From the NCBI GenBank assembly GCA_003142635.1, contig PLMX01000178.1:921-42015 (forward strand): a stretch of 41,095 bases of DNA, in the 5' to 3' direction. Origin of the DNA: Syntrophaceae bacterium. Its GTDB lineage: Bacteria > Desulfobacterota > Syntrophia > Syntrophales > UBA2185. Position numbers and translations under genes: made by a program. Positions 22,869 through 39,677 of the stretch are shown piece by piece. The notes under the pieces are model-generated. The model searched no databases, was not told where the DNA came from, and was given only the letters and a program-made list of their open reading frames with translations. Each line of letters begins with the position of its first letter. Position 1 is the first letter of the stretch.

Positions 22869-23243
22869 TTAACCAATTAGCTTCTTGAGATTCTCCCAGT
22901 TCCATGAGTAAAGCTGACCTGCGTTGGGCACGGCAGTATACTTTCCATCCTTGTAACCGATAACCTGAACGACCCGTATACCTTCATCACGCGCCATCTT
23001 GACCTCTTTAAGAACTCCTGGTGCCTTGTATGTCTGTGGTCCAACCATAACAAGCACAATGTCAGACCGCTTGATCGCGGCCCGTGCTTTATCCTCCCAT
23101 GTCTTCATTGGTGCGGCTTCTTTCAACGAAGTGTCTATTACCTCGAAGGGAGAATCTTGTAGCCTCCCTTGCCCTATCACGAAGTCCTTCAGAACCTTAT
23201 CGTTGTCGAAGTCGAAACTCACGAATACTTTTTTCTTCGCCAT
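22869..23243 (-). CDS. Small ThsB-like TIR-domain protein
   Basis: A 124-residue single-domain protein of ThsB/DUF1863 type: KKVFVSFDFDND at the N-terminus, SDIVLVMVGPQT as the central strand and loop, then APGVLKEVKMA, with Glu80 at the expected NAD-cleaving position. GGAGAGAC precedes the start at suitable spacing. It is the last gene of the minus-strand group after two other TIR genes and the SLOG-patatin gene. In Thoeris, ThsB TIR proteins sense phage and turn NAD+ into a cyclic ADP-ribose-type signal; that role here is inferred from fold and context. Confidence 0.8.
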   Translation of the reverse strand: MAKKKVFVSFDFDNDKVLKDFVIGQGRLQDSPFEVIDTSLKEAAPMKTWEDKARAAIKRSDIVLVMVGPQTYKAPGVLKEVKMARDEGIRVVQVIGYKDGKYTAVPNAGQLYSWNWENLKKLIG

Positions 23244-23345
23244 AGCAGTCTCTCCGATATTATGAATTTTTTAAATTCCTACTTTTATCTAAATTATCGC
23301 TACAAACATGCCTGTTCTCCAATTAAATTCATTCCATCTTCAAAG

Positions 23346-23858
23346 TTAGAGATTTCTAATCGAAACTCCATCCGTCGTTTGGCCCGCAGGAAAAACCTCC
23401 AGCCCCCCTGTAGCACTTGTTAATTGTTTATAAAGCTGGAGATATTCGTTTCCGTACCATCTTCCGGTCTGGTCACTGGTTGGGATAACCAAAATTCTTT
23501 CAAGAGATTTGGATTTATCGGCATAACCTATCTCCCAGGGACACCATCGTGAGGAGGTTGAGTTCGGCGTAGCCAAAAAAAGAAACCAATCGAGACTGAG
23601 GATTCTTTCCTGTATACGTTGAGCCGTTCGCCTGTCGGGCTTCTCTGGCATGGAGTTGTCTTTCCAATCAATATATAACTCCCATCCGTTCTCGTAGAGC
23701 AGGATTTCAAGCCCCGCCGCAAGATCCTGATCGTCATGGCTGTGGCACAGGAATGCAGTCTGCTTTCTTCTCTGGTATGCCTCATCAACCGTTTTCATCC
23801 GCATAACTGTATACGAACGGCGGGCCGCCGCCCTGAGGGAATTCAAAGGTATCGGCAT
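23346..23858 (-). CDS. TIR-domain protein
   Basis: 170 residues. RKQTAFLCHSHDDQDLAAGLE (about 31-51) begins a TIR domain (strand A and AA loop), YIDWKDNSMP is the BB-loop region and SSRWCPWEIGYA (103-114) carries the likely catalytic Glu109. The first 30 residues are a basic extension. AAGGAGGAG before the first ATG favours the full-length start over Met19 or Met21. It differs strongly from the two flanking TIR proteins, so it could respond to a different phage trigger while feeding the same effector. Confidence 0.8.
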   Translation of the reverse strand: MPIPLNSLRAAARRSYTVMRMKTVDEAYQRRKQTAFLCHSHDDQDLAAGLEILLYENGWELYIDWKDNSMPEKPDRRTAQRIQERILSLDWFLFLATPNSTSSRWCPWEIGYADKSKSLERILVIPTSDQTGRWYGNEYLQLYKQLTSATGGLEVFPAGQTTDGVSIRNL

Positions 23859-24133
23859 AAAAAAATCTCCTCCTTTTTTAACCGCCGCAGAGAGCCTTAA
23901 CCCGGCAACGGATGACTACTATGATCCTTTTTATCGGAAAATGAACTTAATTCTGTCTTTTTAAATAATGAATCTTTCCAGATTCACGTTTCTTTTCCAC
24001 AAATGAATATACTTTCGTGTTCTTTTCATGAGATCCGAGGTCGTCTTTAACGTTACCTCGATATTTCAAAATCTCTCACTATTTTCGCTCCATGCGAACT
24101 CAAAACGCTGACGCCTCCGCGACAGGAACAGGG

Positions 24134-24742
24134 TTATCGAGTCTTGGTTATATCGAAGGTGTCAATTTTTTCGCACTTCTCGTATGCGTTTTCTATATAC
24201 TTTGAAGGATCCTTGAGAAAGTCTTCTTCCTCAATTAAAGAAATATAAGATCCACTTAGCTTATCCACCGTCTTACAGCGTTCGCATATATATATAGGAT
24301 CAATCAAATTGTACCTATTTTTAGATATGATCTGGTATACTTTGCTGTTTTCTATTGTGCGAGGCTTACAGCCGTCGTCATAGGGTTTGTACCCAACTAT
24401 CCACCCGTAATCTCCATTCCACTTCATGATTACACCGACAACTCCATTTGTTCTTGATGTCTTGTCTTTACGCGTAATCTCTTTAAGCGAGTATTCGATC
24501 TCCCAGTCTATCCATTTGCTGTTCTTAAGGTTGGGAGATATCACAACAATCGTTACAGACGTGCCGTGCATCATGTCCTTTAAATTCTCCTTGATGTTCT
24601 CCGTAGATGTATCCGTTAGATCCGGGGAATCGCTTGTTTCTCCTTGATAATAGATCGTATCATCCCCCAAAGCCTTAAGAATCTTGTCCCGCAAGCCTTG
24701 CGCCTCACTGTATTTATAGGATATAAATGTTTTTCTTGCCAT
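24134..24742 (-). CDS. ThsB/DUF1863-type TIR protein with C-terminal extension
   Basis: 202 residues. ARKTFISYKYSE opens the TIR-like domain, TSVTIVVISPN (61-71) is the core strand, and NSKWIDWEIEYSL (74-86) holds the likely catalytic Glu81. Residues 130-202 are an extra segment with a CxxC pair (CERC) and a charged tail. A strong AGGAGGA lies about 7 bases before the ATG. It follows the SLOG-patatin gene by 64 bp on the same strand, the closest pairing in the group, so it is the best candidate for that effector's signal maker. Confidence 0.8.
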   Translation of the reverse strand: MARKTFISYKYSEAQGLRDKILKALGDDTIYYQGETSDSPDLTDTSTENIKENLKDMMHGTSVTIVVISPNLKNSKWIDWEIEYSLKEITRKDKTSRTNGVVGVIMKWNGDYGWIVGYKPYDDGCKPRTIENSKVYQIISKNRYNLIDPIYICERCKTVDKLSGSYISLIEEEDFLKDPSKYIENAYEKCEKIDTFDITKTR

Positions 24743-24806: not shown

Positions 24807-26495
24807 CTACGCGAATCTGTCCCACGGAGCGACCGACACTTCATTTAGAAATCTTGACTTCACTGGGCCAAGCGTCTCCGTTTGCAGCGCCGTTTGCTGG
24901 CCGAGATCAGCCAATTCTTCGATTTCCTGTGGTGAATCCAATTTATAGCTCCCAGGCATCGTCATGGTGTTGACTCGTAGAAAGCGTGGCTCCCCTAGTA
25001 GGTGACGTGTGAGTTTTAGCGAAGATTCTTGTTGCACATTCATAAGTAAATCCAGTATCTTTTTCTTCCACAACCAGCCAATAAGCCCAGCTTTCGTCTG
25101 CTTTCGAACAGTGAACGGTTCTTCAGTCGTACCTACGCTCAGCACATCAATTCGCTCCAGTGGGATTCGAAGAAAGCAGGTTGCTTCAACAACAGCAGCC
25201 ATCGCAGGGGAATTTGCCCATACCCCACCATCGAAATAGCTGCTCTCGGCGACCATGTTGGCGATTTTTGCTGCAGTGAAGAACGTTGGTGCTGCCGCAG
25301 TTGCAAGTGCAGCATGTGCGGCTTGTATGTTTGCGTCGGCTGTCAAATCGGGATGATGTGGTGTTCGGAACACGTGAGACACGCCGGCCACGGCATGATA
25401 CGTTGGAATTACTAAGCGGCAACGAGAATCTCGTAGGTATTTCGGTTCACCATCAGGATAGTATGCCTTTTCCAATTCTCGCAGTAATACCTCTTGAGCA
25501 TATTTTGGTTTACAGATATGTCTTAAAATATGCCGCACTCTGCCCCGCAGGCGAGTCACCGGAAAAATAGTAGCCCCCTTCTCTTGATAGAAATCGAGCA
25601 TCTCTTGGCCCGACAGACCGAGCCCTAATCCGATAGCTAGAATTCCGCCAGTCGATGTGCCGGCGATGAGATCAAAGTGGTCTACAATACGGAGATGTGA
25701 CTGACTTTCCCAAGTTGCGAGCGCAGCTGCGGTAAACACACCCTTCAACCCTCCACCATCAAGGGCCAGAATTCTAAATGAAATTCCATCCGAGCCTCGT
25801 CCTCGTACAAGCGGGAGGCGCTCCAGTTGAGCGCAAACCTTTTCAGCGACACTCCTGGCGTCTTCCTCTGCAGATAATCTACGATTCTCGGTCGCATCAA
25901 GGCCATTCTTAAGTTGAGTGAGAAGTATTGGATTCCTTGACAAGAAGTCTTGGGCAACTCCACCGAAGCCACCCAGGAGAAAACAAGGAAGCCCCCGTTT
26001 CATTGCGAGACCAAGCTCAATGGGGATTCCAGCTTGGCCTGCAACCGTATGCCACCACTTGCCTCCAACGACAACCACTGCATCACAGCGTGCCACCATC
26101 CACTTTCGAAGGATTTCCAAACTTTCATCACGGGCTTGGTTTCCTTTGGCTTCAGGTGTTTCATCAACGATTGCCGTTTTTCGCCACTCATCGAGCGAAA
26201 CGACAGAGGGGTCTTTTGACCAAAGGCGGGACACTGCGAGCATCAAAGCGTCTTTCCTACCACCTTGTTCTTGGTGACCCTTGGCTTCTTCCAACAGAAC
26301 TGGCGTGAAGCTAGGGTGGCATCCATGAACAATATGGCCTCCTCGCTGGAATACACAGCGGGAAAATTGGCGCACGAAATCGAGTAGTACCGCACGTTGC
26401 GGCTCTGTGAAGCCCTCCGGAACTGACCCAGATAGCCAGATACGCGCACCGGATAGAGGAACAAAATTGAATTTGTCATGAACATCGTTAGGCAT
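24807..26495 (-). CDS. SLOG-patatin fusion: putative signal-gated phospholipase effector
   Basis: 562 residues. The N-terminal 16-190 region looks like a SLOG nucleotide-sensor domain: ARIWLSGSVPEG, RGGHIVHGCHPS, CDAVVVVGGKW (137-147) and GIPIELGLAMKRGLPCFLLGG. Residues 240-450 are a patatin-like phospholipase with oxyanion loop DGGGLKG (246-252), nucleophile GTSTG (Ser281) and catalytic DGG (Asp422); all key residues are present. No membrane segment was seen. In known systems SLOG domains bind cyclic ADP-ribose-type signals (ThsA) and patatins such as CapV attack membrane lipids once activated. Heading an operon with three TIR genes, it is probably the killer protein of the system. Confidence 0.8.
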   Translation of the reverse strand: MPNDVHDKFNFVPLSGARIWLSGSVPEGFTEPQRAVLLDFVRQFSRCVFQRGGHIVHGCHPSFTPVLLEEAKGHQEQGGRKDALMLAVSRLWSKDPSVVSLDEWRKTAIVDETPEAKGNQARDESLEILRKWMVARCDAVVVVGGKWWHTVAGQAGIPIELGLAMKRGLPCFLLGGFGGVAQDFLSRNPILLTQLKNGLDATENRRLSAEEDARSVAEKVCAQLERLPLVRGRGSDGISFRILALDGGGLKGVFTAAALATWESQSHLRIVDHFDLIAGTSTGGILAIGLGLGLSGQEMLDFYQEKGATIFPVTRLRGRVRHILRHICKPKYAQEVLLRELEKAYYPDGEPKYLRDSRCRLVIPTYHAVAGVSHVFRTPHHPDLTADANIQAAHAALATAAAPTFFTAAKIANMVAESSYFDGGVWANSPAMAAVVEATCFLRIPLERIDVLSVGTTEEPFTVRKQTKAGLIGWLWKKKILDLLMNVQQESSLKLTRHLLGEPRFLRVNTMTMPGSYKLDSPQEIEELADLGQQTALQTETLGPVKSRFLNEVSVAPWDRFA

Positions 26496-27494: not shown

Positions 27495-29126
27495 ATGGCC
27501 CGTTCGAAGAACACATTGAGCGAAAAACTCAGAATAAATAACAATCTGTTAAGCCATATTTATGAGATCAGTTCCCTCCTCACGCGGTCCCCGGATCTGG
27601 GCAAGGTACTCAACGAGATAACGGATCGTGCCATGAACGGCCTGCATTTCGACCGCGCCATAGTCATGCTGCTAAATACCGACCAGACAAAATTGGAATG
27701 TAAGTGCATCAAAGGTTTCACGCCTCAAGGGGAAAAGCGGGCATGGGAAAAACCGCTGATATTGGAAAAACACGACTGCTACGAAGTAAAGGTTATTGGC
27801 CATGGGGATCCCCGGTTTATTCCCGACACAGAAAATGCCCCTGACGTGACACCCATTGACAAGGTGATTAATCGATATCAGGAACGGAATTCCGTTCTTT
27901 ATGTCCCGCTCAAGATTAAGGACAAGATCCTGGGCCTTCTTGGGGTAGACCGTTACCGGACACGCATGGAAATTACTCATGACGATGTGGAATCTCTCAC
28001 CATATTTGCCAATCAGGCATCCATTATTATCGAGAACGCAAGGTTGTATCAGGCTCTAAATGATGAAAAGGCCCTTTCTGAAAACATTATTAAATGTTCG
28101 ACAAACGGCATTATCGTAAGCGACCTGATGGGTAATATCCTCAATTTGAATCCGCGCGCGGAGGAACTGCTGGATATTCACAAGGAGGATGCAGTAAAAC
28201 TTCGCATTCAGGACGTTTTCAAATTCAGTCTGGATCAGCGGAGGGAAATATACAACGCATTGAAGCGGCTGGAGAATACTCATTTTTTTGATTTTCCTTA
28301 TCAAAGGGCGGATGACAAGAAATTGGTGCTTGATTTGAGCGGCTTTGCTGTTCACGACGATAATCGCAATACTCTGGGAGCCGTCACCATAATTTCCGAC
28401 CTGACGGAAAAGAAAAGGATGGACGATTATCTCTTGCGTGTGGAGAAGTTTGCGGCTTTGGGGCGGATTGCGGCCGGAATTGCTCATGAGATAAGAAACC
28501 CACTGGCCGGCATTTACACTACCGTCCAGAATCTTGAAAGTGAGCTTTCTGAAGGCGGCGTTCAAAGCTCTGAAATGAAAAATATCCTTCACGAAATAGA
28601 CCGGATCGAATTATTGATTCGCGAGCTTCTTGACCTTGTGCGTCCCGCCCCGCTTCACACTGAAGAATTTGATATTCATGATCTGCTTTCAACGACGCTT
28701 TCACTGCTCAAGAAGGAAATGGCGAAGAAGAAAATTGCATTAGAGACGAAATATGATGCTAAACCGTCCATGATCAAGGCGGACCCCTATCGACTTCGGC
28801 AGGTCTTTTTAAATCTGACTATTAATGCTATTGAATCCACGAACAGCAGCGGGAAAATCACGGTGAGAACGGATTCAGTAAAGCAGGGAGACAAAGAAAA
28901 AAATTGGATCTCAGTAGATGTCATTGACGAAGGCATCGGCATTCCGTCAAAACACATGAACCGGATCTTCGATCCATTCTTTACAACCAAAAGCAGTGGA
29001 ACCGGCCTTGGATTAACGGTAACTCACAAGATCATAGAAGATCACAACGGCATGATAGAAGTGGAAAGCCTGAAGGATAAAGGGACCAAGTTCAGGATTT
29101 TACTGCCCGTTGCAAAATTAGAATGA
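27495..29126 (+). CDS. GAF-PAS sensor histidine kinase (NtrB-like)
   Basis: 543 residues with no membrane segments, so a cytoplasmic sensor. A GAF domain (about 20-180, small-molecule sensing) is followed by PAS (about 190-305), the HisKA phosphoacceptor AAGIAHEIRNPLAGI (His331) and HATPase_c with N-box LNLTINAIES, G1 DEGIGIP and G2 GTGLGLT (about 437-505). It is paired with the response regulator that starts 24 bp downstream, and it faces the catabolic operon it probably controls. The ligand could be an acyl-CoA, an acid or redox state; the sequence does not say. The start is the only ATG that fits, preceded by a weak purine-rich site. Confidence 0.9.
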   Translation: MARSKNTLSEKLRINNNLLSHIYEISSLLTRSPDLGKVLNEITDRAMNGLHFDRAIVMLLNTDQTKLECKCIKGFTPQGEKRAWEKPLILEKHDCYEVKVIGHGDPRFIPDTENAPDVTPIDKVINRYQERNSVLYVPLKIKDKILGLLGVDRYRTRMEITHDDVESLTIFANQASIIIENARLYQALNDEKALSENIIKCSTNGIIVSDLMGNILNLNPRAEELLDIHKEDAVKLRIQDVFKFSLDQRREIYNALKRLENTHFFDFPYQRADDKKLVLDLSGFAVHDDNRNTLGAVTIISDLTEKKRMDDYLLRVEKFAALGRIAAGIAHEIRNPLAGIYTTVQNLESELSEGGVQSSEMKNILHEIDRIELLIRELLDLVRPAPLHTEEFDIHDLLSTTLSLLKKEMAKKKIALETKYDAKPSMIKADPYRLRQVFLNLTINAIESTNSSGKITVRTDSVKQGDKEKNWISVDVIDEGIGIPSKHMNRIFDPFFTTKSSGTGLGLTVTHKIIEDHNGMIEVESLKDKGTKFRILLPVAKLE

Positions 29127-29149
29127 TTAACCTCATCTGGAGGAAATGA

Positions 29150-30505
29150 TTGAAACCATCAATCCTGATCGTTGAAGACGAGAAGCTCCTTATGACTTCC
29201 CTGTATAAAGCTCTGTCGAGAGAGGGCTACAAGGTCATTTCGTCAACGACCGGCGAAGAAGCCCTGGATTCTTTCAGGGAAAGCAGCCCCGATATCGTTC
29301 TTCTCGATGTCCGGCTTCCCGGGCTTGACGGCATGCAGGTGCTGAAAACCATCAGGTCCATGGACAACAATGTACCCATTATCATCATGACGGCATTCAG
29401 TGGTATTAAGGGGGCTGTCGAAGCGATGAAACTCGGTGCCCATGACTATATCGCAAAACCATTTGATATCGAGGAGCTGAAATTCGTTCTTGCCAAGTGC
29501 CTTGTTTCTCAAAAAGCGGTAACGGAGGTAAATGAGATTCGCTCCACAAGAAGGGAGCTTTTCACTTTCGAAAATATTATCACGTCCAACGCAAGAATCA
29601 AGACTCTCATCAGCCAGAGTAAACGACTTGCGCAGAACGCTCAATCTACCGTGCTGATAATGGGAGAGAGCGGAACCGGGAAAGAGCTTTTTGCCAACGC
29701 CATTCATTACAACGGGCCCCGCTCCGATGATCCGCTAATCACCGTTAACTGCGCCGCACTCACTGAGGGAATACTTGAAAGCGAACTCTTCGGCCACGAG
29801 AAAGGGGCATTCACGGGCGCCGTGAAGAGGAAAAAAGGTATGTTTGAACTAGCGGATCGGGGGACCCTTTTTCTTGATGAGATTGCAGAGATCAGTAATA
29901 AGACCCAGGTCAAGTTGTTAAGGTTTCTGGAGGAGAAGAAGATTCAACGGGTGGGGGGAACAGAACGTATCGAAGTCGATGTGAGAATTGTTGCCGCGAC
30001 CAATAAGGACCTGCTGCAGCAAATAAAAATGGGGAAGTTCAGGGAAGATCTATATTATCGCCTCAATGTAATTTCCTTTGTCATCCCGCCGTTGAGAGAA
30101 AGAAAGAATGACATTCCTCTCCTCATCGATTATTTCGTCGCCACTTACAACAAAGTCCTGAACAAAAATGTCAGCGGCTGTGACGGCGAGGCACTGGAAA
30201 TACTTAAAAAATATCCGTGGCCGGGAAATATTCGGGAATTGAGAAACATCATCGAAAGAGCAATGCTATTAAGCGACGGCAACATGATCAAGTCGTCAGA
30301 CATTCCCATTGAACATACGTCCACCGACGGAAACTCGAACATGGCGAAGATCAACAACCTTGACCCGATGCCCCTTGACAAACTTATCTCGTCCTACGTG
30401 CAAAGTATCCTGAAACAGTTCGAAAACAACAGGTCCAGGACGGCTGAAGCATTACGAATCACCAGACAAAGACTAAGGCGCATCTTGAAATCCTTGGTGG
30501 ATTAA
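29150..30505 (+). CDS. NtrC-family sigma-54-dependent response regulator
   Basis: 451 residues. The receiver domain (1-118) has phospho-acceptor Asp53 in IVLLDVRLPG and the conserved Lys in YIAKPFD. The AAA+ domain has Walker A GESGTGKE (about 171-178), the sigma-54 contact loop GAFTGA (219-224) and FLDEI as Walker B. The C-terminal Fis-type HTH (about 415-451) ends in RTAEALRITRQRLRRIL. The start is TTG at 29150-29152, set by GGAGG at 29139-29143; the nearby ATG (29146) is out of frame. It likely activates the sigma-54 promoter at 30964-30979 through the inverted repeats lying between its gene and that operon. Confidence 0.9.
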   Translation: MKPSILIVEDEKLLMTSLYKALSREGYKVISSTTGEEALDSFRESSPDIVLLDVRLPGLDGMQVLKTIRSMDNNVPIIIMTAFSGIKGAVEAMKLGAHDYIAKPFDIEELKFVLAKCLVSQKAVTEVNEIRSTRRELFTFENIITSNARIKTLISQSKRLAQNAQSTVLIMGESGTGKELFANAIHYNGPRSDDPLITVNCAALTEGILESELFGHEKGAFTGAVKRKKGMFELADRGTLFLDEIAEISNKTQVKLLRFLEEKKIQRVGGTERIEVDVRIVAATNKDLLQQIKMGKFREDLYYRLNVISFVIPPLRERKNDIPLLIDYFVATYNKVLNKNVSGCDGEALEILKKYPWPGNIRELRNIIERAMLLSDGNMIKSSDIPIEHTSTDGNSNMAKINNLDPMPLDKLISSYVQSILKQFENNRSRTAEALRITRQRLRRILKSLVD

Positions 30506-30538
30506 TTCGGCCCAATCACTGGCCTGATTTCATCCATC

Positions 30539-30556
30539 GTTATCCATCTTCTAATC
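30539..30556 (+). promoter_or_regulatory. Candidate activator-binding site, left arm of 18-bp inverted repeat
   Basis: GTTATCCATCTTCTAATC is the exact reverse complement of 30710-30727, 153 bp away. ATCCATC just before it (30532-30538) adds another half-site. It lies about 410 bp upstream of the sigma-54 promoter, within looping range for an NtrC-type activator. Confidence 0.5.
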
Positions 30557-30709
30557 CTGTTTGATTCAGGTGTTTTACAGATCGATCAAAATACATTCCA
30601 TAAATGAAGGTCCCGGGAATGGATGAAAACCATCCAATTCGCTGATTTTCAGGCTCAATGTAAGAAAGGCTGGAAAGAATAATTGTTCGGTTCCTGATCA
30701 AAAAAATAT

Positions 30710-30727
30710 GATTAGAAGATGGATAAC
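30710..30727 (-). promoter_or_regulatory. Candidate activator-binding site, right arm of 18-bp inverted repeat
   Basis: GATTAGAAGATGGATAAC is the exact reverse complement of 30539-30556. The inner flanks also match imperfectly (TTTGATTCAGG against TTTGATCAGG read on opposite strands). An alternative reading is the ends of a 190-bp MITE-like element, though no target duplication was seen. Confidence 0.5.
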
Positions 30728-30963
30728 TTCATTATGACATCCAGAAATCGGTGCGCGCCATCTCTTTTCACTATATTGCTGTGATCCTTCTCTATTATGG
30801 CCAAGCAAATCTTAAAATCTAAGGCCGCTTTAAATTTCCTGTTTTTCTTGATGTCAATTAAGCGGGTCGTTACAATTCATAATTGTCTCTTGAGGCGCCA
30901 ATAGCAACAACTCAAAAGTCTTTCCCCTTTTTATTTTTTCCTTTTCAAGAAGATATGAATATG

Positions 30964-30979
30964 CGGCACATTGTTTGCT
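30964..30979 (+). promoter_or_regulatory. Sigma-54 (-24/-12) promoter of the CoA-catabolism operon
   Basis: CGGCACATTGTTTGCT matches TGGCAC-N5-TTGCT at all but the first base, with exact GG-N10-GC spacing. It predicts a start site near 30990 and a leader of about 58 nt before the first gene. The NtrC-type regulator just upstream makes this a strong call. Confidence 0.75.
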
Positions 30980-31047
30980 CTCCTGCAAAGTGATTGTTTC
31001 TTGCGTCTAAGACATAAAAGCAAAAGAACAAGGAAAGGAGTGTAGGG

Positions 31048-31971
31048 ATGAAAGAAAAAGCCGTTATCACTGCAGCAATTACCGGTAGTATCCACACGCC
31101 GGTCATGTCTCCCTATCTCCCTATTACGCCCAAGCAGATTGCCGACGAGGCGGTTGCCGCTAGTGAAGCGGGGGCGGCTGTAGCGCATATCCATGTTCGT
31201 GATCCGCAGACGGGTCGTCCGATACCCGATGTGAATCTTATCAAGGAAGTGGTGACCTCGATCAAGAGCAGGTGCAACATGATCGTCTGCATCACCACAG
31301 GCGGCGGGCTTGGCATGACGGCGGAGCAGCGCCTGATACCTGTATCGACATTCAAGCCGGAGCTCGCATCCTTTAATGCCGGCTCTCTCAACTTCGCTCT
31401 TTTTCATGCTCTCGACAAGTACAAGAAATTCAAGTTCGACTGGGAGCCTCAGTATCTTGCCATGACCGAAGATTTCATCTTCCCCAACACCTTCAAATCC
31501 ATGCGTGAGTTCACAACGATCTTCAGCGAACAGGGGACTAAGCCTGAATTCGAAGTTTACGATTCCGGCATGATAAACAACGTGGCATTTCTCATTGAGC
31601 GCGGCTACGTGAAAAAACCCGTCTACATTCAATATGTCATGGGCATCCTGGGTGGTATCACGGCGAGCCCGGAAAATCTCATGTTTCTGGTGGATTATAC
31701 AAAACGTCTCATCGGCGATTTCGAGTTTTCCGTCTGCGTGGCCGGCCGGGCCCAGTTCCCCACCTGTACCCAGTCACTATTGCTGGGTGGTAACTGTCGG
31801 GTCGGCCTGGAGGATAACCTTTACCTGGAAAAGGGTATGATGGCCAAGAGCAACGCCGAGCAGGTGGCGAAGATTGTCCGGATCGCACGTGAGCTGGGCA
31901 TCGACCCGGCTACCCCGGATGAAACAAGGCAGATCCTTGGTCTTAAGGGAATCGGAAAAGTAAATTTCTGA
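31048..31971 (+). CDS. BKACE-family beta-keto acid cleavage enzyme (DUF849)
   Basis: 307 residues, the full family length. The zinc site HIHVRD (His47, His49) and the acidic loop GLEDNLYL (about 253-260) are the hallmarks of 3-keto-5-aminohexanoate cleavage enzyme (Kce) and its BKACE relatives. These condense a beta-keto acid with acetyl-CoA, releasing acetoacetate and a new acyl-CoA. The substrate differs widely in the family; with no lysine-fermentation genes nearby, 3-keto-5-aminohexanoate is unlikely here. It is the first gene after the sigma-54 promoter and probably feeds its acyl-CoA product to the dehydrogenases downstream. Confidence 0.85.
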   Translation: MKEKAVITAAITGSIHTPVMSPYLPITPKQIADEAVAASEAGAAVAHIHVRDPQTGRPIPDVNLIKEVVTSIKSRCNMIVCITTGGGLGMTAEQRLIPVSTFKPELASFNAGSLNFALFHALDKYKKFKFDWEPQYLAMTEDFIFPNTFKSMREFTTIFSEQGTKPEFEVYDSGMINNVAFLIERGYVKKPVYIQYVMGILGGITASPENLMFLVDYTKRLIGDFEFSVCVAGRAQFPTCTQSLLLGGNCRVGLEDNLYLEKGMMAKSNAEQVAKIVRIARELGIDPATPDETRQILGLKGIGKVNF

Positions 31972-32008
31972 TTCCTCTATGCGCAATAAAAGAGTCAGGA
32001 GATAAGAG

Positions 32009-33169
32009 ATGGATTTCAATTTTAGTGAACATCACATCATGTTGAGGGATAGCATTCGTAACTTTGCTTCAAAGGAAATCTGGCCCATCGCCGAGGAGAT
32101 CGATGCAGAGGACAAGTGGCCCGATGGCATGTGGCAGAAGCTGGCAAACATGGGAATTATGGGGATCACCGTTGCTGAAGAGTATGGAGGCGCCGGAGCG
32201 GATCTAATCTCCGCCATCATTGTCCTGGAAGAGCTGTCAAAAGCAAGTCCGGCCATTGCCCTTTCCTGGGGCGCCCATGCTAATCTCTGCTGCAATAATC
32301 TCAACCACAATGCCAGCCCGAATCAAAAAAGTAAGTATCTGCCGCCCCTTTGCACGGGGCAGCACATCGGAGCTCTTGGACTGACAGAGCCTAATGCCGG
32401 CTCTGATGCCGTCAATATCCAGACCGTCGCATTGAGGAAAGCTGATCATTATGTGGTGAACGGCACGAAGATGTTCATCACCAACGGGTCAGTGGCAAAC
32501 ACTATTGTTCTCTATGCCAAGACGGACAAGGGAAAGGGCGCGCGGGGACTTACAGCCTTCATCCTGGACACCAGCTTTCCCGGTTTTTCCGTTTCGAAGA
32601 AGTTGAAGAAGTACGGCCACCGCGGCTCGCCAACGGCGGAGCTGATATTACAGGATTGTATAATTCCAGCAGAGAACGTTATCGGAGAAGAAAACAAGGG
32701 CGTTAACGTCATGATGTCCGGTCTCGATGTGGAGAGGGCTTTCTATGCCGGGGAATCCATCGGGATCGCCGAAGCCTGTCTGGAGCTCTCCCTTAAGTAT
32801 GCCAAGGAAAGGGTTCAGTTTGGAAAACCAATCGGCGCCTTCCAGCTCATTCAGGCCAAGCTGGCGGATATGTACACCCAGCTCGAGGCCGGGAAGATGC
32901 TCTGCTACAAAGCGGCCGTCCTTGCCGAACAGGCAAGAACGGGCGGCAAGGGTACTGAGATACATAAGCTCGCGGCAGCATCCATTCTCTTCAATGCCGA
33001 GATGGCAAGCCGTATCGCCGATCAGGCGGTCCAGATTCATGGCGGTTACGGCTACATGCTCGAATATCCGGTCCAACGATTCTTAAGAGACGCCAAACTG
33101 ATTGAGATTGGTGCAGGAACATCCGAGATCCGACGCCTCATAATTGCAAGAGAGTTGCTCGGAATGTGA
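32009..33169 (+). CDS. Acyl-CoA dehydrogenase (isovaleryl-CoA dehydrogenase-like)
   Basis: 386 residues, a normal acyl-CoA dehydrogenase. GLTEPNAGSDA and FITNGSVAN are the FAD/substrate signatures. The usual catalytic Glu of medium-chain enzymes is absent (IGAGTSEI), but Glu242 in MSGLDVERAF sits where isovaleryl-CoA dehydrogenase has its base. It therefore probably oxidises a branched or otherwise hindered acyl-CoA to the 2-enoyl-CoA, passing electrons to ETF. No etfAB genes are in the window. The gene ends a few bases before the MaoC-like gene, whose ribosome site follows the stop. Confidence 0.9.
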   Translation: MDFNFSEHHIMLRDSIRNFASKEIWPIAEEIDAEDKWPDGMWQKLANMGIMGITVAEEYGGAGADLISAIIVLEELSKASPAIALSWGAHANLCCNNLNHNASPNQKSKYLPPLCTGQHIGALGLTEPNAGSDAVNIQTVALRKADHYVVNGTKMFITNGSVANTIVLYAKTDKGKGARGLTAFILDTSFPGFSVSKKLKKYGHRGSPTAELILQDCIIPAENVIGEENKGVNVMMSGLDVERAFYAGESIGIAEACLELSLKYAKERVQFGKPIGAFQLIQAKLADMYTQLEAGKMLCYKAAVLAEQARTGGKGTEIHKLAAASILFNAEMASRIADQAVQIHGGYGYMLEYPVQRFLRDAKLIEIGAGTSEIRRLIIARELLGM

Positions 33170-33180
33170 GAGGAGGCAAT

Positions 33181-33648
33181 ATGGGGAAGGAATATGAATA
33201 TCTCGACGACTACACCGTTGGTGAAAAATTTGTTTCTCCTGCAAGAACAATCACCGAAGCAGACATAGTCCTCTTCGCCGCTCTCACGGGGGACTGGCAT
33301 CCTTTGCACACCGACGTTGAGTATGCGAAAAAAACCCCCTTCAAGGAAAGGATCGCCCACGGCATGCTGACGCTGTCCGTAGGCATGGTTCTACCTTTCC
33401 GGCTTGGGCCCTATTCAAGCTTCCTTCCTCGATCTTTCATTGCCTTTTACGGCATGGAGTCTGTGCGCTTTACAGGGGCCACCAAGATCGGGGATACGAT
33501 TCACTGTGAAGTGGAGGTCACTGAGATTACAGACAAGGGTATCGAGAGAGGCGTGCTGACCACACAGAACAGGATTGTGAGCCAGAAGGGCGATTTGCTG
33601 ATCACATACGTTATCAAAGTTCTCTGCGGGAAGAGACTAAAGAAATAG
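33181..33648 (+). CDS. MaoC-like hotdog-fold hydratase/dehydratase
   Basis: 155 residues from the ATG at 33181, chosen because AGGAGG (33171-33176) sits just before it; an upstream GTG at 33166 overlaps the previous gene. The hotdog domain carries GDWHPLHTD (Asp38, His43), the place of the GDxNPxH hydratase motif of MaoC/R-hydratases, with His in place of the usual Asn. HGMLTLSVGM continues the fold. It could hydrate the enoyl-CoA made by the dehydrogenases, and it is the only hydratase candidate in the operon. Confidence 0.85.
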   Translation: MGKEYEYLDDYTVGEKFVSPARTITEADIVLFAALTGDWHPLHTDVEYAKKTPFKERIAHGMLTLSVGMVLPFRLGPYSSFLPRSFIAFYGMESVRFTGATKIGDTIHCEVEVTEITDKGIERGVLTTQNRIVSQKGDLLITYVIKVLCGKRLKK

Positions 33649-33665
33649 GCAAGAACAACGACAAT

Positions 33666-33683
33666 GCTGAGTTTAAACTCAGC
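33666..33683. promoter_or_regulatory. Perfect 18-bp palindrome between maoC-like and thiolase genes
   Basis: GCTGAGTTTAAACTCAGC is an uninterrupted palindrome inside the operon. No T-run follows it, so it is not a typical terminator. It could be an operator, a recombination hot spot or an mRNA stability element. The next gene's AAGGAGG follows 17 bp later. Confidence 0.55.
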
Positions 33684-33712
33684 CTCATACCAAAAACCAA
33701 GGAGGTAAAACC

Positions 33713-34849
33713 ATGCGAAGAGTTGCCATTACTCATGTGGCACAGAGTTCCGGCGTGGAGTCAAAAGAGAGCCTTATGGATTTTACATACGCCATCAATA
33801 AGGAGATTCTCGACAAAGCCGGACTGAAGCGTGAAGAGGTAGGGTGTATCATTGCCGGCGCCGCGGATATCTTCCACAGCGGGCTTTCCTGCGCCAATGC
33901 CTTTGACTGGGATGGCATCGGCGCCTTTTTAAAGGAAGGCTCCCGTGCAGAAGAGTCGGCTTTCTCGTTTATCTATGGATGCATGCGGATCATGTCGGGC
34001 CACTTTGACACCGTTCTTGTAACCGCTCTCGTCAAAGGATCCGAGAACCCAGATAACGATGCGATCACTAGTTTTTATGGAGATCCCTTTTATTTGAGGC
34101 CTGTGGGATTGAACGAGAGTGCTGTGGCGGCGATGCAAATGCGTCAATATCTCGAGCGCTACGGGATAACGGAAGAGCAGTGCGCAAAGGTCGTCGTCAA
34201 AAACCGCGGCAATGCCCTTTTCAACCCTTACGCTCATGTAAAGAAAAGAGTGAGTATAAAAGATGTCATGGACTCGGAAAGAATCTATGACCCTCTCAAG
34301 ACCCTGGAATGCTCACCCAAGTCCGACGGCGTCGTCGCCGTTTTGCTTGCGTCGGAGAAGAGAGCCAGGAAGCTTACGGGGAAACCCGTATGGCTTACGG
34401 GCTACGGGTCTTCGATGGATCACTTCATCCCGGGAGACAGGGATCTCCTGAACGGCCAGTTGAAGACGGCCGCTGCCCGTGCCTATAAAATGGCCGGTAT
34501 CCGCGATCCACAAAAGAAGATAGACGTTGCGGAGATCTGCGAGCCATATGCCTTCCAGGAACTCCTGTGGTGCGAACATTTAGGGATCTGCAGTGAGGGG
34601 CAAGGAGGAAAACTGATTGACAGTGGCATGACACAGATGGATGGGGCTCTTCCTGTGAATCCCTCCGGGGGCGTCCTGGCCACAAACCCCTATCCGGCGA
34701 GAGGCCTCTATCGCATTGCCGAAGCGGCCCTCCAGATCAAGGGCCAGGCTGGAGAGCACCAAGTGGATAAAAAAGTAAGAACGGCACTGGCTCACAGCAC
34801 ACACGGATTTGGAGGCCAGTGCCACTCCGTTGTCATCCTATCATCTTAG
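33713..34849 (+). CDS. Thiolase-like protein lacking the usual nucleophile Cys
   Basis: 378 residues of SCP2-type thiolase fold: VNPSGGVLATNPYPARGL and ALAHSTHGFGG (active-site His region) are present. Where its neighbour has the nucleophile motif VETCGST, this protein reads AEESAFS, so no Cys is aligned. It may be the non-catalytic half of a heteromeric thiolase, or it may bind the acyl-CoA for another reaction. AAGGAGG lies just before the ATG. It is one of two thiolase-like genes followed by two DUF35 genes. Confidence 0.8.
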   Translation: MRRVAITHVAQSSGVESKESLMDFTYAINKEILDKAGLKREEVGCIIAGAADIFHSGLSCANAFDWDGIGAFLKEGSRAEESAFSFIYGCMRIMSGHFDTVLVTALVKGSENPDNDAITSFYGDPFYLRPVGLNESAVAAMQMRQYLERYGITEEQCAKVVVKNRGNALFNPYAHVKKRVSIKDVMDSERIYDPLKTLECSPKSDGVVAVLLASEKRARKLTGKPVWLTGYGSSMDHFIPGDRDLLNGQLKTAAARAYKMAGIRDPQKKIDVAEICEPYAFQELLWCEHLGICSEGQGGKLIDSGMTQMDGALPVNPSGGVLATNPYPARGLYRIAEAALQIKGQAGEHQVDKKVRTALAHSTHGFGGQCHSVVILSS

Positions 34850-34864
34850 CAGGAGGGAAACATC

Positions 34865-36031
34865 ATGGGGAAAGCAGTTGCAATTATAGGGACAGGCCAG
34901 ACCAAACACGGAAGACGGTCTGATGTATGCTATCCCGACCTGGTAAGGGAATCAGTTACGACAGCCCTTCAAGACGCCGGGATTACTTTAAAGGATATTG
35001 ACGGTGTCGTTCTCGGGACCATGCCCTCGATGATGGAGGGAGTTTCGTCGACACATTTTTATTTTGCCGAGGCCATGGGTGCACTCAATAAGCCTGTGAT
35101 GAAAGTGGAGACATGCGGAAGCACAGGGCAATCCATCGGACACTGCGGGTATTACTGGGTGGCCTCGGGCATGGCAGACATTGTATTGGTCGTCGGTTCC
35201 GAAAAGATGTCAGAAGGAGACGGCCAGGCGACAATGACAACAGTCTTCGATCCTTTTTTTCAGAGGACCTTTGCGGCAGGAGCGCCGGGGGTCTTTACCA
35301 TGCAGAGCATGGAGTGGATGTACCGCTTCAACATTCCCGAAGACAAGGGCCGTGAAGCGGCTGCGATGATTTCGGTCAGCAATCACGACAACGCCATGGA
35401 CAACCCGCACGCCCATATCAGGGTCCGGGTAACCATGGATGAAGTCAAGAATGCGCGCATCATAACCTATCCCGTCCGCCTCCTCGATGTATGCCCGGCC
35501 TCGGACGGCGCCTGCGCCGTCATATTTGCCAGCGAGGAGAAGGCAAAGAAGATTTGCAAGAAACCGGCCTGGATCAAAGGGCTGGGCTTCAGGGGTGAAG
35601 AATTCTTCTATGGAGAAAGCGACAAGGCCATATGGATGAGCGCAACCGAAGCGGCAAAAGAAGCTTACAAGCAGGCCGGCATCAGGAATCCTCTGAAGGA
35701 ACTGGACGTTGCCGAGATCTACAATCCCTTCACCTATCAGGAGATGATTTTTTATGAGTGTTTGGGGCTCTGTCCCCGTGGTGAAGCGCCTGATTACGTA
35801 TTGAAGGGAACCTTCAAGAAAGGAGGCCAGCTTCCCTGCTGTCCGTCGGGCGGAACACTGTGCAGCAACCCGATAGGCGCCACAGGGCTGATCAGGTTGG
35901 CGGAAGCGGCCCTGCAGGTTACAGGCAAAGCCGGCGCACGACAGGTGGGTGGTGCAAAATTGGCCCTCTCCCATGCCATGGGCGGTGTGGACCAGTTCAA
36001 CGGGGTGACCATAGTCGGATCGAAGCTGTAA
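34865..36031 (+). CDS. Thiolase of the SCP2/BbsB type (intact nucleophile)
   Basis: 388 residues. KVETCGSTGQS holds the probable nucleophile Cys (about residue 80), LSHAMGG gives the active-site His, and CPSGGTLCSNPIGATGL matches the thiolase C-terminal signature with C in place of N. It starts 15 bp after the previous gene with a strong AGGAGGG. Thiolases with adjacent DUF35 proteins, such as BbsAB of anaerobic toluene degradation, cleave 3-oxoacyl-CoA esters in complex with that partner. The same use is likely here; the exact substrate is unknown. Confidence 0.85.
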   Translation: MGKAVAIIGTGQTKHGRRSDVCYPDLVRESVTTALQDAGITLKDIDGVVLGTMPSMMEGVSSTHFYFAEAMGALNKPVMKVETCGSTGQSIGHCGYYWVASGMADIVLVVGSEKMSEGDGQATMTTVFDPFFQRTFAAGAPGVFTMQSMEWMYRFNIPEDKGREAAAMISVSNHDNAMDNPHAHIRVRVTMDEVKNARIITYPVRLLDVCPASDGACAVIFASEEKAKKICKKPAWIKGLGFRGEEFFYGESDKAIWMSATEAAKEAYKQAGIRNPLKELDVAEIYNPFTYQEMIFYECLGLCPRGEAPDYVLKGTFKKGGQLPCCPSGGTLCSNPIGATGLIRLAEAALQVTGKAGARQVGGAKLALSHAMGGVDQFNGVTIVGSKL

Positions 36032-36043
36032 AGGAGGAAAGAA

Positions 36044-36511
36044 ATGTCAAAGGAAGAACACAGAATCGTCAAGGGCCAGGTCATGGTCCCCTATGAACTC
36101 GCCTTGGGCAGGACCTGGTGCCATTTTTTTGATTGCCTGAAGGAAGAAAAAATAATGGGCAAGAAATGCCGGAAGTGCTCAAGGGTACTTGTTCCCCCCA
36201 GGAGCTTCTGTCCACGCTGTTTTGAGGATATGGAAGAATGGGTCGAAGTAAGCCAGGAAGGCGTGGTGGAAACCTGGGTCTATGTAAACATGCCCTTCTT
36301 CGCGCAGGAGCTTAAAATACCCTTTATCTCTGCCCAGATTCGTCTGGACGGCAGCGACAGCGGCTTCATACATCAAATCGCCGGAATCGACCTCTCCGAC
36401 TTTGACAAGGTCAGGGAAAGAGTGAAACTGGGCGATCGGGTGAGGGCGGTCTGGAGCACGGAGAAAAAGGGGAACATTCTTGATATTGCATATTTCGAAC
36501 CGGTGAAATGA
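36044..36511 (+). CDS. DUF35 OB-fold/zinc-ribbon thiolase partner, copy 1
   Basis: 155 residues. The rubredoxin-like zinc ribbon CRKCSRVLVPPRSFCPRC (about 46-63) is followed by a short OB-fold, the standard DUF35 layout (BbsA-like). DUF35 proteins bind thiolases and help pass CoA or acyl groups. It sits directly after the intact thiolase. It is related throughout to the next gene, pointing to an old duplication that gave each thiolase its own partner. Confidence 0.85.
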   Translation: MSKEEHRIVKGQVMVPYELALGRTWCHFFDCLKEEKIMGKKCRKCSRVLVPPRSFCPRCFEDMEEWVEVSQEGVVETWVYVNMPFFAQELKIPFISAQIRLDGSDSGFIHQIAGIDLSDFDKVRERVKLGDRVRAVWSTEKKGNILDIAYFEPVK

Positions 36512-36523
36512 GGAGGGTAAAAC

Positions 36524-36988
36524 ATGGCAAAGGAATACAGAACAATAAGAAATGATGTGGCTCTGCCCTATCAGTGGGCCTTGGGCAAGACATGGACCCG
36601 GTTTTTCGATGGTTTGAAGGAAGAACAAATATGGGGAACAAAATGCACTCATTGCAGCAGGACCTACGTCCCGGCGAGGACATTCTGTCCCGATTGCTTC
36701 ACGGACAGGACGGAATGGGTCCCCGTGAAGCCGGAAGGGAAAATTGTTTCCTGGACCCTCGTGAAGGCAACGTACCACGGACAGGTCAAGCCTCCTCCCT
36801 ATATCATCGCCTTGATTCAGCTATCCGGAACAGATTGCGGATTTCATCATTTCATCGGCGGCGTTGAAACGGAGAACATTAAAAAGCTAAGACAGAAACT
36901 GAAGAAAGGAGCAAAAGTAAAGGCCGTCTGGAATCCCGAAAAAAAGGCGGACATTTACGACATTGCCTACTTTGCACCAGTCAAATAG
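36524..36988 (+). CDS. DUF35 OB-fold/zinc-ribbon thiolase partner, copy 2
   Basis: 154 residues with the same architecture as copy 1: CTHCSRTYVPARTFCPDC zinc ribbon (about 41-58), OB-fold after it, and the shared ending DIAYFAPVK. A 12-bp gap with GGAGGG couples it to copy 1. Two unequal DUF35 copies next to two unequal thiolases suggest a four-subunit complex or two parallel complexes. Confidence 0.85.
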   Translation: MAKEYRTIRNDVALPYQWALGKTWTRFFDGLKEEQIWGTKCTHCSRTYVPARTFCPDCFTDRTEWVPVKPEGKIVSWTLVKATYHGQVKPPPYIIALIQLSGTDCGFHHFIGGVETENIKKLRQKLKKGAKVKAVWNPEKKADIYDIAYFAPVK

Positions 36989-37046
36989 CGCTGTGAGTTA
37001 TAGTGTCTAAACAATCCAAAAAGACCAGAAAAAGGAGGGATTGATT

Positions 37047-38411
37047 ATGTCGTCTGTCGACTGGAAAGATCTTTACAATAAGAAATTATGTAAAGCCGAA
37101 GAAGCGGCCAGCGCCGTGAGAAGCGGAGACCGGATCATGACGCCCCTCTGCCTCGGCCAACCCACGAATCTTATCATGGACGCCATCGCGGACCGCAAGG
37201 ATGAGGTGAAGGACTGCGAGTTCAATGCCCTCCTGACCTTGCGGCCGTATAAGATATTCAAGCCCGAATACCGTGGGAGCTTCAGGATCAATGCGGGGTT
37301 CCTGGGGACGGCCAATATAAGGTCGTGCTTCCCTGTAAGCGAAAGCTATGGGCGCTATGTGCCGGTCAGTTCCTTCTCGACCTCCAAGCAGTATTCCTAC
37401 TATCGGAGGCCTGATGTCGCTGTCATGATGGTAACCCCTCCGGACAAAGACGGCTTTGTAAACCTGGGGCCGGACCTCTTCTATACCCGTTCCATGATCG
37501 AAGGCGTCCAGACGAGCAAAGGCATCATTGGCGGCGCCCGTGTGGTCATCGCCGAGGAGAATGACCAGTACCCGCCTGCCTTCGGATACACCAAGCTCCA
37601 TGTATCCAAGCTGACCCATATTGTTCAGAATTCTGCGAAACTGCCGGCGCCCCCTGCGCCCACTCCAACAGAAGCCCACCAAAAGATTGCGGAGAATGTC
37701 GTGAATCTCCTTCGTGACCGCGACACCATCCAGATCGGCATCGGCGCCCTACCCATGGTGGTATCGGACCTTATCGTCAAGTCCGACCTCAGAGACATCG
37801 GCGTTCTCACGGAGATGCTGCCAACGGGAGCTCCCCAGTGGGTGGAAAAAGGCATCTGCACAGGCAAATACAAAAAGTTCAGAACCGGGGAGATCAACTG
37901 CACCTTCATGGGTCCCTCTGCGGAACTCTATGAGTTTATCCAGAAGAATGAGTTTGTAAAATTCTTTCCCAGCAACGTGACCAACCATCCCGCCACCCTC
38001 GGCGCCGAAGACCAGCTTGTGGGCATCAACGGGGCACTTGAAATCGACCTTGCCGGTCAGATAGCGTCATTGACCTGCGGAGAGAGGATCTTCAGCGGAT
38101 ATGGCGGTCAGATCGATTTTGCCATGGCCTGCCGCATGTCGGAGTTTGGGCGGATGATCATTGCCACAGAATCCATTGGAAGGGATGAGAATCGCAATCC
38201 CATCACTCGTATCGTGAAGCACCTGCAGCCCGGTAGCCTGGTGAACATCCCTGCCCATCTTGTGGATTACGTGGTCACGGAAAACGGCATTGCAGGTCCT
38301 CTGGAAGGAATGTCGGTGACTGAACGTGCCGAAGCGCTGATCAAAATCGCACATCCAAAGTTCCAGGAGGAATTGGTCAAGGCTGCCAAGGGAAGAGGCA
38401 TATTTCAGTGA
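37047..38411 (+). CDS. Acetyl-CoA hydrolase/CoA-transferase family protein
   Basis: 454 residues from the ATG at 37047; AAAGGAGGG (37031-37039) is too close to an upstream TTG (37041). IQIGIGALPMVV and VLTEMLPTGA (catalytic Glu at about 256) together with SGYGGQIDFAMA fit the 4-hydroxybutyrate/butyryl-CoA:acetate CoA-transferase group. The Glu forms the acyl-anhydride intermediate. It would activate the operon's acid substrate with CoA from acetyl-CoA, or release the end product, without spending ATP; this suits an energy-limited anaerobe. Confidence 0.85.
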   Translation: MSSVDWKDLYNKKLCKAEEAASAVRSGDRIMTPLCLGQPTNLIMDAIADRKDEVKDCEFNALLTLRPYKIFKPEYRGSFRINAGFLGTANIRSCFPVSESYGRYVPVSSFSTSKQYSYYRRPDVAVMMVTPPDKDGFVNLGPDLFYTRSMIEGVQTSKGIIGGARVVIAEENDQYPPAFGYTKLHVSKLTHIVQNSAKLPAPPAPTPTEAHQKIAENVVNLLRDRDTIQIGIGALPMVVSDLIVKSDLRDIGVLTEMLPTGAPQWVEKGICTGKYKKFRTGEINCTFMGPSAELYEFIQKNEFVKFFPSNVTNHPATLGAEDQLVGINGALEIDLAGQIASLTCGERIFSGYGGQIDFAMACRMSEFGRMIIATESIGRDENRNPITRIVKHLQPGSLVNIPAHLVDYVVTENGIAGPLEGMSVTERAEALIKIAHPKFQEELVKAAKGRGIFQ

Positions 38412-38435
38412 AACAATAAAGCTCGATTGAAAGAC

Positions 38436-38462
38436 GGGAGAAACAATTAAAGGTTATCTCCC
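38436..38462 (+). terminator. Weak hairpin between CoA-transferase and second dehydrogenase
   Basis: GGGAGA (38436-38441) and TCTCCC (38457-38462) pair over a 15-nt loop, then TTCTTCG. It is too weak for a firm terminator call, but it could attenuate transcription into the last gene, which is 120 bp from its neighbour. Confidence 0.3.
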
Positions 38463-38531
38463 TTCTTCGTTTCTGAAAATTGTTTTCTTTCAAAGAACCG
38501 CGATTCGTCGAGTCATTGAGAGGAGAAAACT

Positions 38532-39677
38532 GTGCAGGCATTTACTGCTGAGCAGAAAATGCTACGGGATACCATCGCCAATTTTGCCGAGAAGGAAGTT
38601 GCACCGCTTGCCTACGAGATCGACCGCGATGAGCGTTTCCCTACAGAGAGTTTCAAAAGACTTGCAGAACTGGGAGTCCTGGGGATCACCGTTCCTGCTG
38701 AATACGGCGGCGCCGGTACAGGATACACCGAGATGTGCATCGTGACGGAGGAGCTTGCCCGATTTTGCGCGTCCACATCGGCGACCTATGCAGATCATGC
38801 CGACCTTTGCATCGATAACATCCGTAGAAATGCCACGGACAATCAAAAGAAAAAATACCTGCCTTCCTTGTGCAGCGGCGACAAAATAGGCGGGCTCGCG
38901 ATGACGGAACCGTCTGCCGGCTCTGATGTTATGTCCATGAACCTCCGGGCAGAAAGGAAGGGCGGTTTTTACATCCTCAATGGCACGAAGACCTTCATCA
39001 CTAACGGGCCCGTGGGAGATGTTTTTGTGATCTACGCCAAGACCGCTCCCGAAAAGAAAGCGCAGGGAGTTTCCGCCTTCATTGTGGAAAACGATTTTCC
39101 CGGTTTTGAACGGGGCAAGAAATTCGAGAAAATGGGGTGGCGCGGTTCACCAACAGGAGAACTTGTCTTCGAGGATTGCAAGGTACCGGCGGAAAATCTC
39201 CTAGGCGAGGAAAACAAAGGCGCCATTGTGCTGATGAGCGGGCTGAATACGGAACGCATCGTTCTCGGGGCCATGTCCCTCGGGATTTCACGAGGGGCTT
39301 GCGAATGCGCTTTGAAATATGCAAAAGAGCGCATTCAGTTCGGTAAGCCCATCGCTGCCTTTCAACTGATCCAGGCCAAACTCGCGGATATGGCCATGGA
39401 GATAGAGCTTTCGCACCTGATTACTTATAAAGGGGCAGCCATGGCGGACCGGGGGCTGCATCGTGAATTGAACCTTGTAGCCGCTTATGCTAAACTTTAT
39501 ACCTCGGAAGCAGCGATGCGCGTGACGACGGAAGCTGTGCAGGTCCTTGGCGGGTACGGTTACATGAAGGAATTTCCCGTGGAGAGGATGATGCGGGATG
39601 CAAAACTCCAGACCATCGGGGGCGGGACATCCGAGATACAACGCATCATCATTGCAAGGGAAATCCTCAACGATTAG
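38532..39677 (+). CDS. Second acyl-CoA dehydrogenase (isovaleryl-CoA dehydrogenase-like)
   Basis: 381 residues, starting with GTG at 38532 behind GAGAGGAG (38518-38525). AMTEPSAGSDV and FITNGPVGDV are the family signatures. The base is again at the isovaleryl type position (Glu241 in MSGLNTERIV), and the medium-chain position reads IGGGTSEI. It is a paralogue of the first dehydrogenase of the operon, so two desaturation steps or two related substrates are implied. It is the last gene of the sigma-54 operon, set apart by a 120-bp gap. Confidence 0.9.
   Translation: MQAFTAEQKMLRDTIANFAEKEVAPLAYEIDRDERFPTESFKRLAELGVLGITVPAEYGGAGTGYTEMCIVTEELARFCASTSATYADHADLCIDNIRRNATDNQKKKYLPSLCSGDKIGGLAMTEPSAGSDVMSMNLRAERKGGFYILNGTKTFITNGPVGDVFVIYAKTAPEKKAQGVSAFIVENDFPGFERGKKFEKMGWRGSPTGELVFEDCKVPAENLLGEENKGAIVLMSGLNTERIVLGAMSLGISRGACECALKYAKERIQFGKPIAAFQLIQAKLADMAMEIELSHLITYKGAAMADRGLHRELNLVAAYAKLYTSEAAMRVTTEAVQVLGGYGYMKEFPVERMMRDAKLQTIGGGTSEIQRIIIAREILND

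Follow-up and report, generated by a model that had tools for sequence, protein, structure and literature searches.

The intergenic region of 542 bp described here is, in our reading, the control region of a BKACE (beta-keto acid cleavage enzyme)/acyl-CoA operon, in which an NtrC-type regulator would occupy three dyads and reach a sigma-54 promoter by DNA looping (probability roughly 0.87). What is conserved is a 17-bp dyad, TGGATTRAWTTMATCCA (TGGAT-N7-ATCCA), present mostly in three copies at 14 orthologous regulator loci, namely that of the window (the whole stretch of 41,095 nucleotides that was analysed) and 13 others. As far as can be judged from the sequence, it is very probable that the regulator activates the operon through this conserved switch, which would be one of an ordinary kind. 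A catabolic operon of a group of mostly uncultured Syntrophales can now be assigned its regulator, operator sequence and promoter. The comparative data also corrected a first reading of this DNA: the most striking repeat of a promoter region need not be the operator.

Gene order and predicted operon function

The window originates from a 3.47-Mb draft genome in 260 contigs, and among its sequence relatives are Syntrophaceae UBA6252, UBA4054 and UBA5761, a Syntrophales MAG and Smithella sp. PtaU1.Bin162, which very probably places it in the order Syntrophales. A histidine kinase gene is followed by that of an NtrC-type regulator, the intergenic region and the acyl-CoA/beta-keto-acid operon (Table 1), so that the regulatory elements lie between regulator and catabolic genes, as an earlier note on this DNA had it.

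Table 1 Features of the window discussed in the text
Feature	Position	Strand	Remarks
Type IIG-like restriction enzyme	5719-9213		Defence cluster
UG21-like reverse transcriptase, DRT kind	9274-11151		Defence cluster
HKD+Snf2 helicase	14113-17448		Defence cluster
TIR/ThsB-like genes	22869-24742	-	Defence cluster
SLOG-patatin effector	24807-26495		Defence cluster
GAF-PAS-HisKA-HATPase sensor kinase	27495-29126	+	Pfam GAF, PAS_9, HisKA, HATPase_c
NtrC-family response regulator	29150-30505	+	Pfam Response_reg, Sigma54_activat, AAA_lid_14; TTG start as listed
UAS copy 1, TGGATTAATTCGGCCCA	30498-30514	+	8/10 match; overlaps regulator stop codon; position and sequence conserved
UAS copy 2, TGGCCTGATTTCATCCA	30520-30536	+	8/10; 22 bp from copy 1; position and spacing conserved
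Left arm of 18-bp repeat, GTTATCCATCTTCTAATC	30539-30556	+	Extra ATCCA half-site at 30542-30546; not conserved
UAS copy 3, TGGATGAAAACCATCCA	30620-30636	+	10/10, perfect 5-bp arms; conserved in orthologs
Right arm of 18-bp repeat, GATTAGAAGATGGATAAC	30710-30727	+	Extra TGGAT half-site at 30720-30724; not conserved
-24/-12 promoter, CGGCACATTGTTTGCT	30964-30979	+	11/12 scored consensus positions; predicted start ~30990
BKACE	31048-31971	+	First operon gene; PF05853
Acyl-CoA dehydrogenase	32009-33169	+	Operon gene
MaoC-type hydratase	33166-33648	+	Operon gene
Thiolase-like protein 1	33713-34849	+	Operon gene
Thiolase-like protein 2	34865-36031	+	Operon gene
OB-fold/zinc-ribbon (DUF35, ChsH2-type) partner proteins, two	36044-36511, 36524-36988	+	Operon genes
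CoA-transferase, acetyl-CoA hydrolase/butyryl-CoA:acetate type	37041-38411	+	Operon gene
Second acyl-CoA dehydrogenase	38532-39677	+	Operon gene; probable operon end

The translated regulator has the receiver Asp, Walker A and B motifs and GAFTGA; the combination of a receiver, a Sigma54_activat AAA+ domain with the GAFTGA loop and a Fis-type helix-turn-helix (HTH) places it among NtrC-family bEBPs, the HTH_8 match (20.2 bits) falling just below the 22-bit Pfam cut-off. Its best NCBIfam model is AtoC (482.7 bits, below the cut-off of 714), and that of the sensor kinase is AtoS (308.8 bits, below the cut-off of 646). By its sequence the kinase seems to be cytoplasmic, and its input is probably an internal metabolite, e.g., an acyl-CoA or keto acid. 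Kinases 55-77% identical to it stand upstream of the regulator in eight ortholog loci. An rpoN gene is present in the genome.

The first operon gene encodes a member of the PF05853 family (BKACE), scoring 416.3 bits against NCBIfam NF053538 (3,5-dioxohexanoate:acetyl-CoA acetone transferase), below the cut-off of 430. The gene content suggests CoA-linked acid breakdown as the role of the operon, with fat or keto acids as the presumed substrates.

The regulator is absent from the three other genomes of the same genus, yet occurs in other families of the order, and the BKACE is 85-88% identical to copies from other families versus 75-81% to copies from the genus. Lateral transfer or contig misbinning is a possible source of the locus at 27495-39677; the G+C content of the window (47.7%) lies among the values found for other parts of the genome.

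A dense defence cluster lies upstream (4471-26495). Besides the genes listed in Table 1, two neighbouring ORFs, at 18304-19938 and 20014-22530, correspond to residues 3-509 and 540-1145 of the PADLOC model TmtA; as they cover successive parts of one model, the protein is split or else interrupted at 18304-22530.

A conserved 17-bp dyad after the regulator gene

Searching 155 genomes of the order with the regulator yielded one ortholog group of 14 members in 12 genomes (60-75% identity), other NtrC-family proteins beginning at about 47% identity; no ortholog was found among some 380 further genomes of the phylum. All related genomes compared were drafts. The consensus TGGATTRAWTTMATCCA was built from 37 sites, in which G2 and C16 are invariant. 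At most ortholog loci copy 1 overlaps or directly adjoins the regulator stop codon. Copies 1 and 2 are spaced by 22 bp in 10 loci, 32 bp in one and 44 bp in two; since these values are close to whole helical turns, the protein would sit side by side on one face of the DNA. Wherever both can be recognised (10 loci), copy 3 follows copy 2 at 78-100 bp.

Individual loci vary around this scheme. In the window, each of the first two copies has one degenerate half; in G064, two identical perfect dyads stand 22 bp apart; sites are weak, and the third copy not recognisable, in G030a and G011a, and in G015 the third copy is the only recognisable dyad. In the regulators of L029 and L031 (genomes G030 and G011) the linker ahead of the HTH is longer and contains a repeated QGNRSR motif, which gives the impression of a duplicated HTH start, and there the first two UAS copies are 44 bp apart, not 22.

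The GGATG/CATCC half-sites reported in the earlier note are real, and the best such pair in the intergenic region is the dyad of copy 3; they gave only a partial view of the three TGGAT-N7-ATCCA copies. Copy 1, which falls just upstream of its interval (30539-30979), escaped it.

Dyads were counted in 280 bp around and after the regulator end at the 14 orthologous loci, with shuffled sequences as control. At least 8/10 matching positions were found in 32 dyads against 3.4 expected, and at least 9/10 in 16 against 0.23, an overall frequency about ten-fold over chance, in a statistic that is not fully independent because the motif was already known from the same loci when the ortholog sites were chosen. 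Independent checks came from paralogous regulators, from BKACE loci unlinked to the regulator and from a genome scan. Around 10 paralogous NtrC genes only two dyads of at least 8/10 were present, and none of at least 9/10.

As far as we found, this operator motif has not been described before: a search of the text of the open-access literature, directed also at a BKACE/NtrC link and at Syntrophus sigma-54 regulators, retrieved no published account of a TGGAT-N7-ATCCA operator.

Sigma-54 promoter

The near-consensus sigma-54 promoter of the earlier note was recovered as CGGCACATTGTTTGCT, which carries GG at -24 and GC at -12 at consensus spacing, and the start predicted from it coincides with the one proposed there. 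The pattern YGGCAYN5TTGCW is matched once in the window, where chance would give 0.17 matches. An AAAGGAG stands ahead of the ATG at 31048. At all 14 loci a promoter whose GGCA and TTGC blocks are invariant follows the last dyad at a distance of 145-344 bp; the window, with 344 bp between copy 3 and the promoter, has the longest distance of the set, the others ranging from 145 to 290 bp.

Among 38 BKACE loci, a GGCAY-N6-TTGC-type promoter accompanies every one linked to the regulator (6/6). Of the 32 without it, none has a promoter site at 10 or more positions, six have a weak 9/12 site, always lacking the TTGC block, and a dyad of at least 9/10 is seen at just one. In some genomes the regulator precedes instead a gene for a MaoC protein, an acyl-CoA dehydrogenase or an enoyl-CoA hydratase-like protein (the last label being a reading of the translated gene start), so the design tracks the regulator rather than one enzyme.

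Thus the claim that kinase and regulator, sites and sigma-54 promoter form an activation unit holds in so far as they recur as one conserved unit in 14 loci, which is as expected for enhancer activation at a distance; binding, looping and dependence on rpoN are the parts of it that we infer.

The 18-bp inverted repeat

Between copies 2 and 3 begins the perfect 18-bp inverted repeat to which the earlier note had drawn attention. Its existence was borne out: complementarity of the arms is 100% over 18 bp and still 92% when extended to 24 bp, the perfect arms lie 153 bp apart, and no other exact inverted repeat in the window reaches this length. In 300 dinucleotide shuffles of the intergenic region the largest repeat was 15 and never 18, and shuffles of the whole window gave repeats of 11-12 with arms within 300 bp.

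That the arms, joined in a loop, are the main binding sites of the regulator, as first supposed, is nevertheless very unlikely. The perfection of the repeat, beyond chance, would suit such a role, as would the ATCCA or TGGAT half-site in each arm, the left one lying exactly 10 bp, or one turn, past that of copy 2. Yet the repeat occurs in no ortholog (five close loci aligned; 14 loci in all), though all of them have dyads and promoter, and these alignments ruled it out as a conserved operator; outside the half-site the arm sequence is unlike the conserved dyad, and neither arm forms a proper 17-bp dyad. The repeat is thus confined to this genome, and the conserved operator is the 17-bp dyad.

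Perfect 18-bp ends enclosing about 189 bp overall, in a spacer about 100 bp longer than that of the relatives, might instead mark a small inserted MITE-like element. This is extremely improbable: the arms enclose the third dyad, which orthologs have at the same relative place, so the repeat is not an inserted element; no second copy was found in the 3.47-Mb genome, and no direct repeat was seen right beside the arms. Neither multiple copies nor an insertion relative to the relatives, the marks of a MITE with terminal inverted repeats, could be established, and this assignment was rejected.

An RNA stem formed by the repeat at the 3' terminus of the kinase/regulator transcript, with a role in stability or termination, was considered as well and is judged unlikely. 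The transcript of 30500-30760 folds better than its shuffles (z = -4.45), but this effect stems from the repeat itself, the arms are 153 nt apart, and folding of the orthologous regions is not consistently strong (most z values -2.2 to 0.1). As we looked for an intrinsic terminator and found none, and the fold is not conserved in orthologs, a terminator or conserved RNA structure was discarded.

Being absent in orthologs, single-copy and placed around an ancestral third dyad, the repeat is neither the operator core nor mobile. It is a lineage-specific addition whose role would be accessory at most, bringing no more than two extra half-sites, and its most economical origin would be recent local copying in a region rich in half-sites. 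A functional contribution is conceivable, though unlikely: the extra half-sites, 10 bp past that of copy 2 and 100 bp past that of copy 3, could support a local loop or larger assembly offsetting the long distance between enhancer and promoter.

Occurrence of the dyads elsewhere

When 14 whole genomes were scanned blind for paired dyads at 22-bp spacing, five regulator loci came up and only one further place in each of G030 and G011, some 14 kb away from the second copy of the regulator in these genomes. There, directly after the stop of a kinase gene whose product is 54% identical to the window kinase, come the dyads, then CGGCATGCCCCTTGCT and a BKACE-family gene with 32% identity to that of the window. 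With paired dyads and CGGCATGCCCCTTGCT following a related kinase gene, enhancer and promoter of this type are thus met again, at a predicted second target. The paired pattern was found nowhere else in the window's genome. As a searchable motif, TGGATTRAWTTMATCCA paired at 22 bp may serve to predict other targets of the regulator.

Single dyads of the form TGGAT-N7-ATCCA occur at 11 places in the window's genome against about three expected from base counts alone; among eight inspected outside the window, only a few are close to plausible sigma-54 sites. At L073 (1501-1631; G000 contig C142), on another contig of this genome, a perfect dyad, TGGATACTTATTATCCA, stands about 115 bp before TGGCACAGGCCTTGCT, a full-consensus (12/12) sigma-54 site; it may be a second target or the site of another regulator. 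A wider single-dyad regulon is not claimed, the best candidate, L073, having neither the K/M flanks nor a paired site.

The distribution bears on whether some other regulator, not linked to the locus, binds the conserved dyads. Degenerate sites such as these could suit another Fis-type activator; the dyads are, however, found only beside this regulator or downstream of the related kinase gene, paralogous NtrC genes lacking them, and the HTH of the orthologs is almost invariant (ITRQRL(R/K)RIL), which makes an unlinked regulator most improbable.

Proposed mechanism

Activation by the linked regulator would start at the kinase, whose GAF and PAS domains may sense an intracellular signal, the presumed inducer, and which would then phosphorylate the NtrC-type regulator. 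Dimers of the latter are predicted to bind the three dyads through the Fis-type HTH: copies 1 and 2, two helical turns apart, would carry one dimer each, placed side by side, and copy 3 may aid regulator assembly on them. The bound oligomer would contact sigma-54 polymerase at the -24/-12 element through a DNA loop of about 330-460 bp and spend ATP to open the promoter near 30990. By analogy, assembly of the phosphorylated regulator and loop contact should follow the established behaviour of NtrC-type activators.

Comparison with known systems

At the glnA enhancer, a pair of dyads of about 17 bp lets NtrC act over distance on a -24/-12 promoter. The window resembles this system in its regulator (receiver, AAA+ and Fis-type HTH), its dyads and its distant -24/-12 promoter, but differs in dyad sequence and target genes, and its enhancer overlaps the stop codon of the regulator's own gene.

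Functionally closer is AtoSC of Escherichia coli, a kinase and NtrC-family regulator that activate the sigma-54-dependent atoDAEB operon, for breakdown of acetoacetate and short-chain fatty acids, from an upstream palindromic site; the AtoC operator consists of two inverted 20-bp sites of the GCTATGCAGAAATTTGCACA type (PMC3118216). Shared features are the kinase/regulator pair, the sigma-54 operon for acid breakdown and the palindromic site, and AtoS and AtoC are the best NCBIfam models. The window pair, however, scores far under both equivalog cut-offs and by these curated values is not a member; its operator is TGGAT-N7-ATCCA and not of the AtoC type, its kinase is a GAF/PAS protein, and its enzymes are BKACE, acyl-CoA dehydrogenases and DUF35-partnered thiolases.

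The enhancer-binding protein regulons of Desulfovibrio vulgaris, which belongs, broadly speaking, to the same phylogenetic neighbourhood, were inferred from motifs by the same method and likewise include regulator genes adjoining their own sigma-54 operons (PMC4641369). The main text of that study makes no mention of TGGAT or ATCC motifs (PMC4641369). Most sites there lie within 100 nt of the promoter, but four promoters are more than 300 bp from their UAS (PMC4641369), so that the long spacing in the window is unusual, though not unprecedented.
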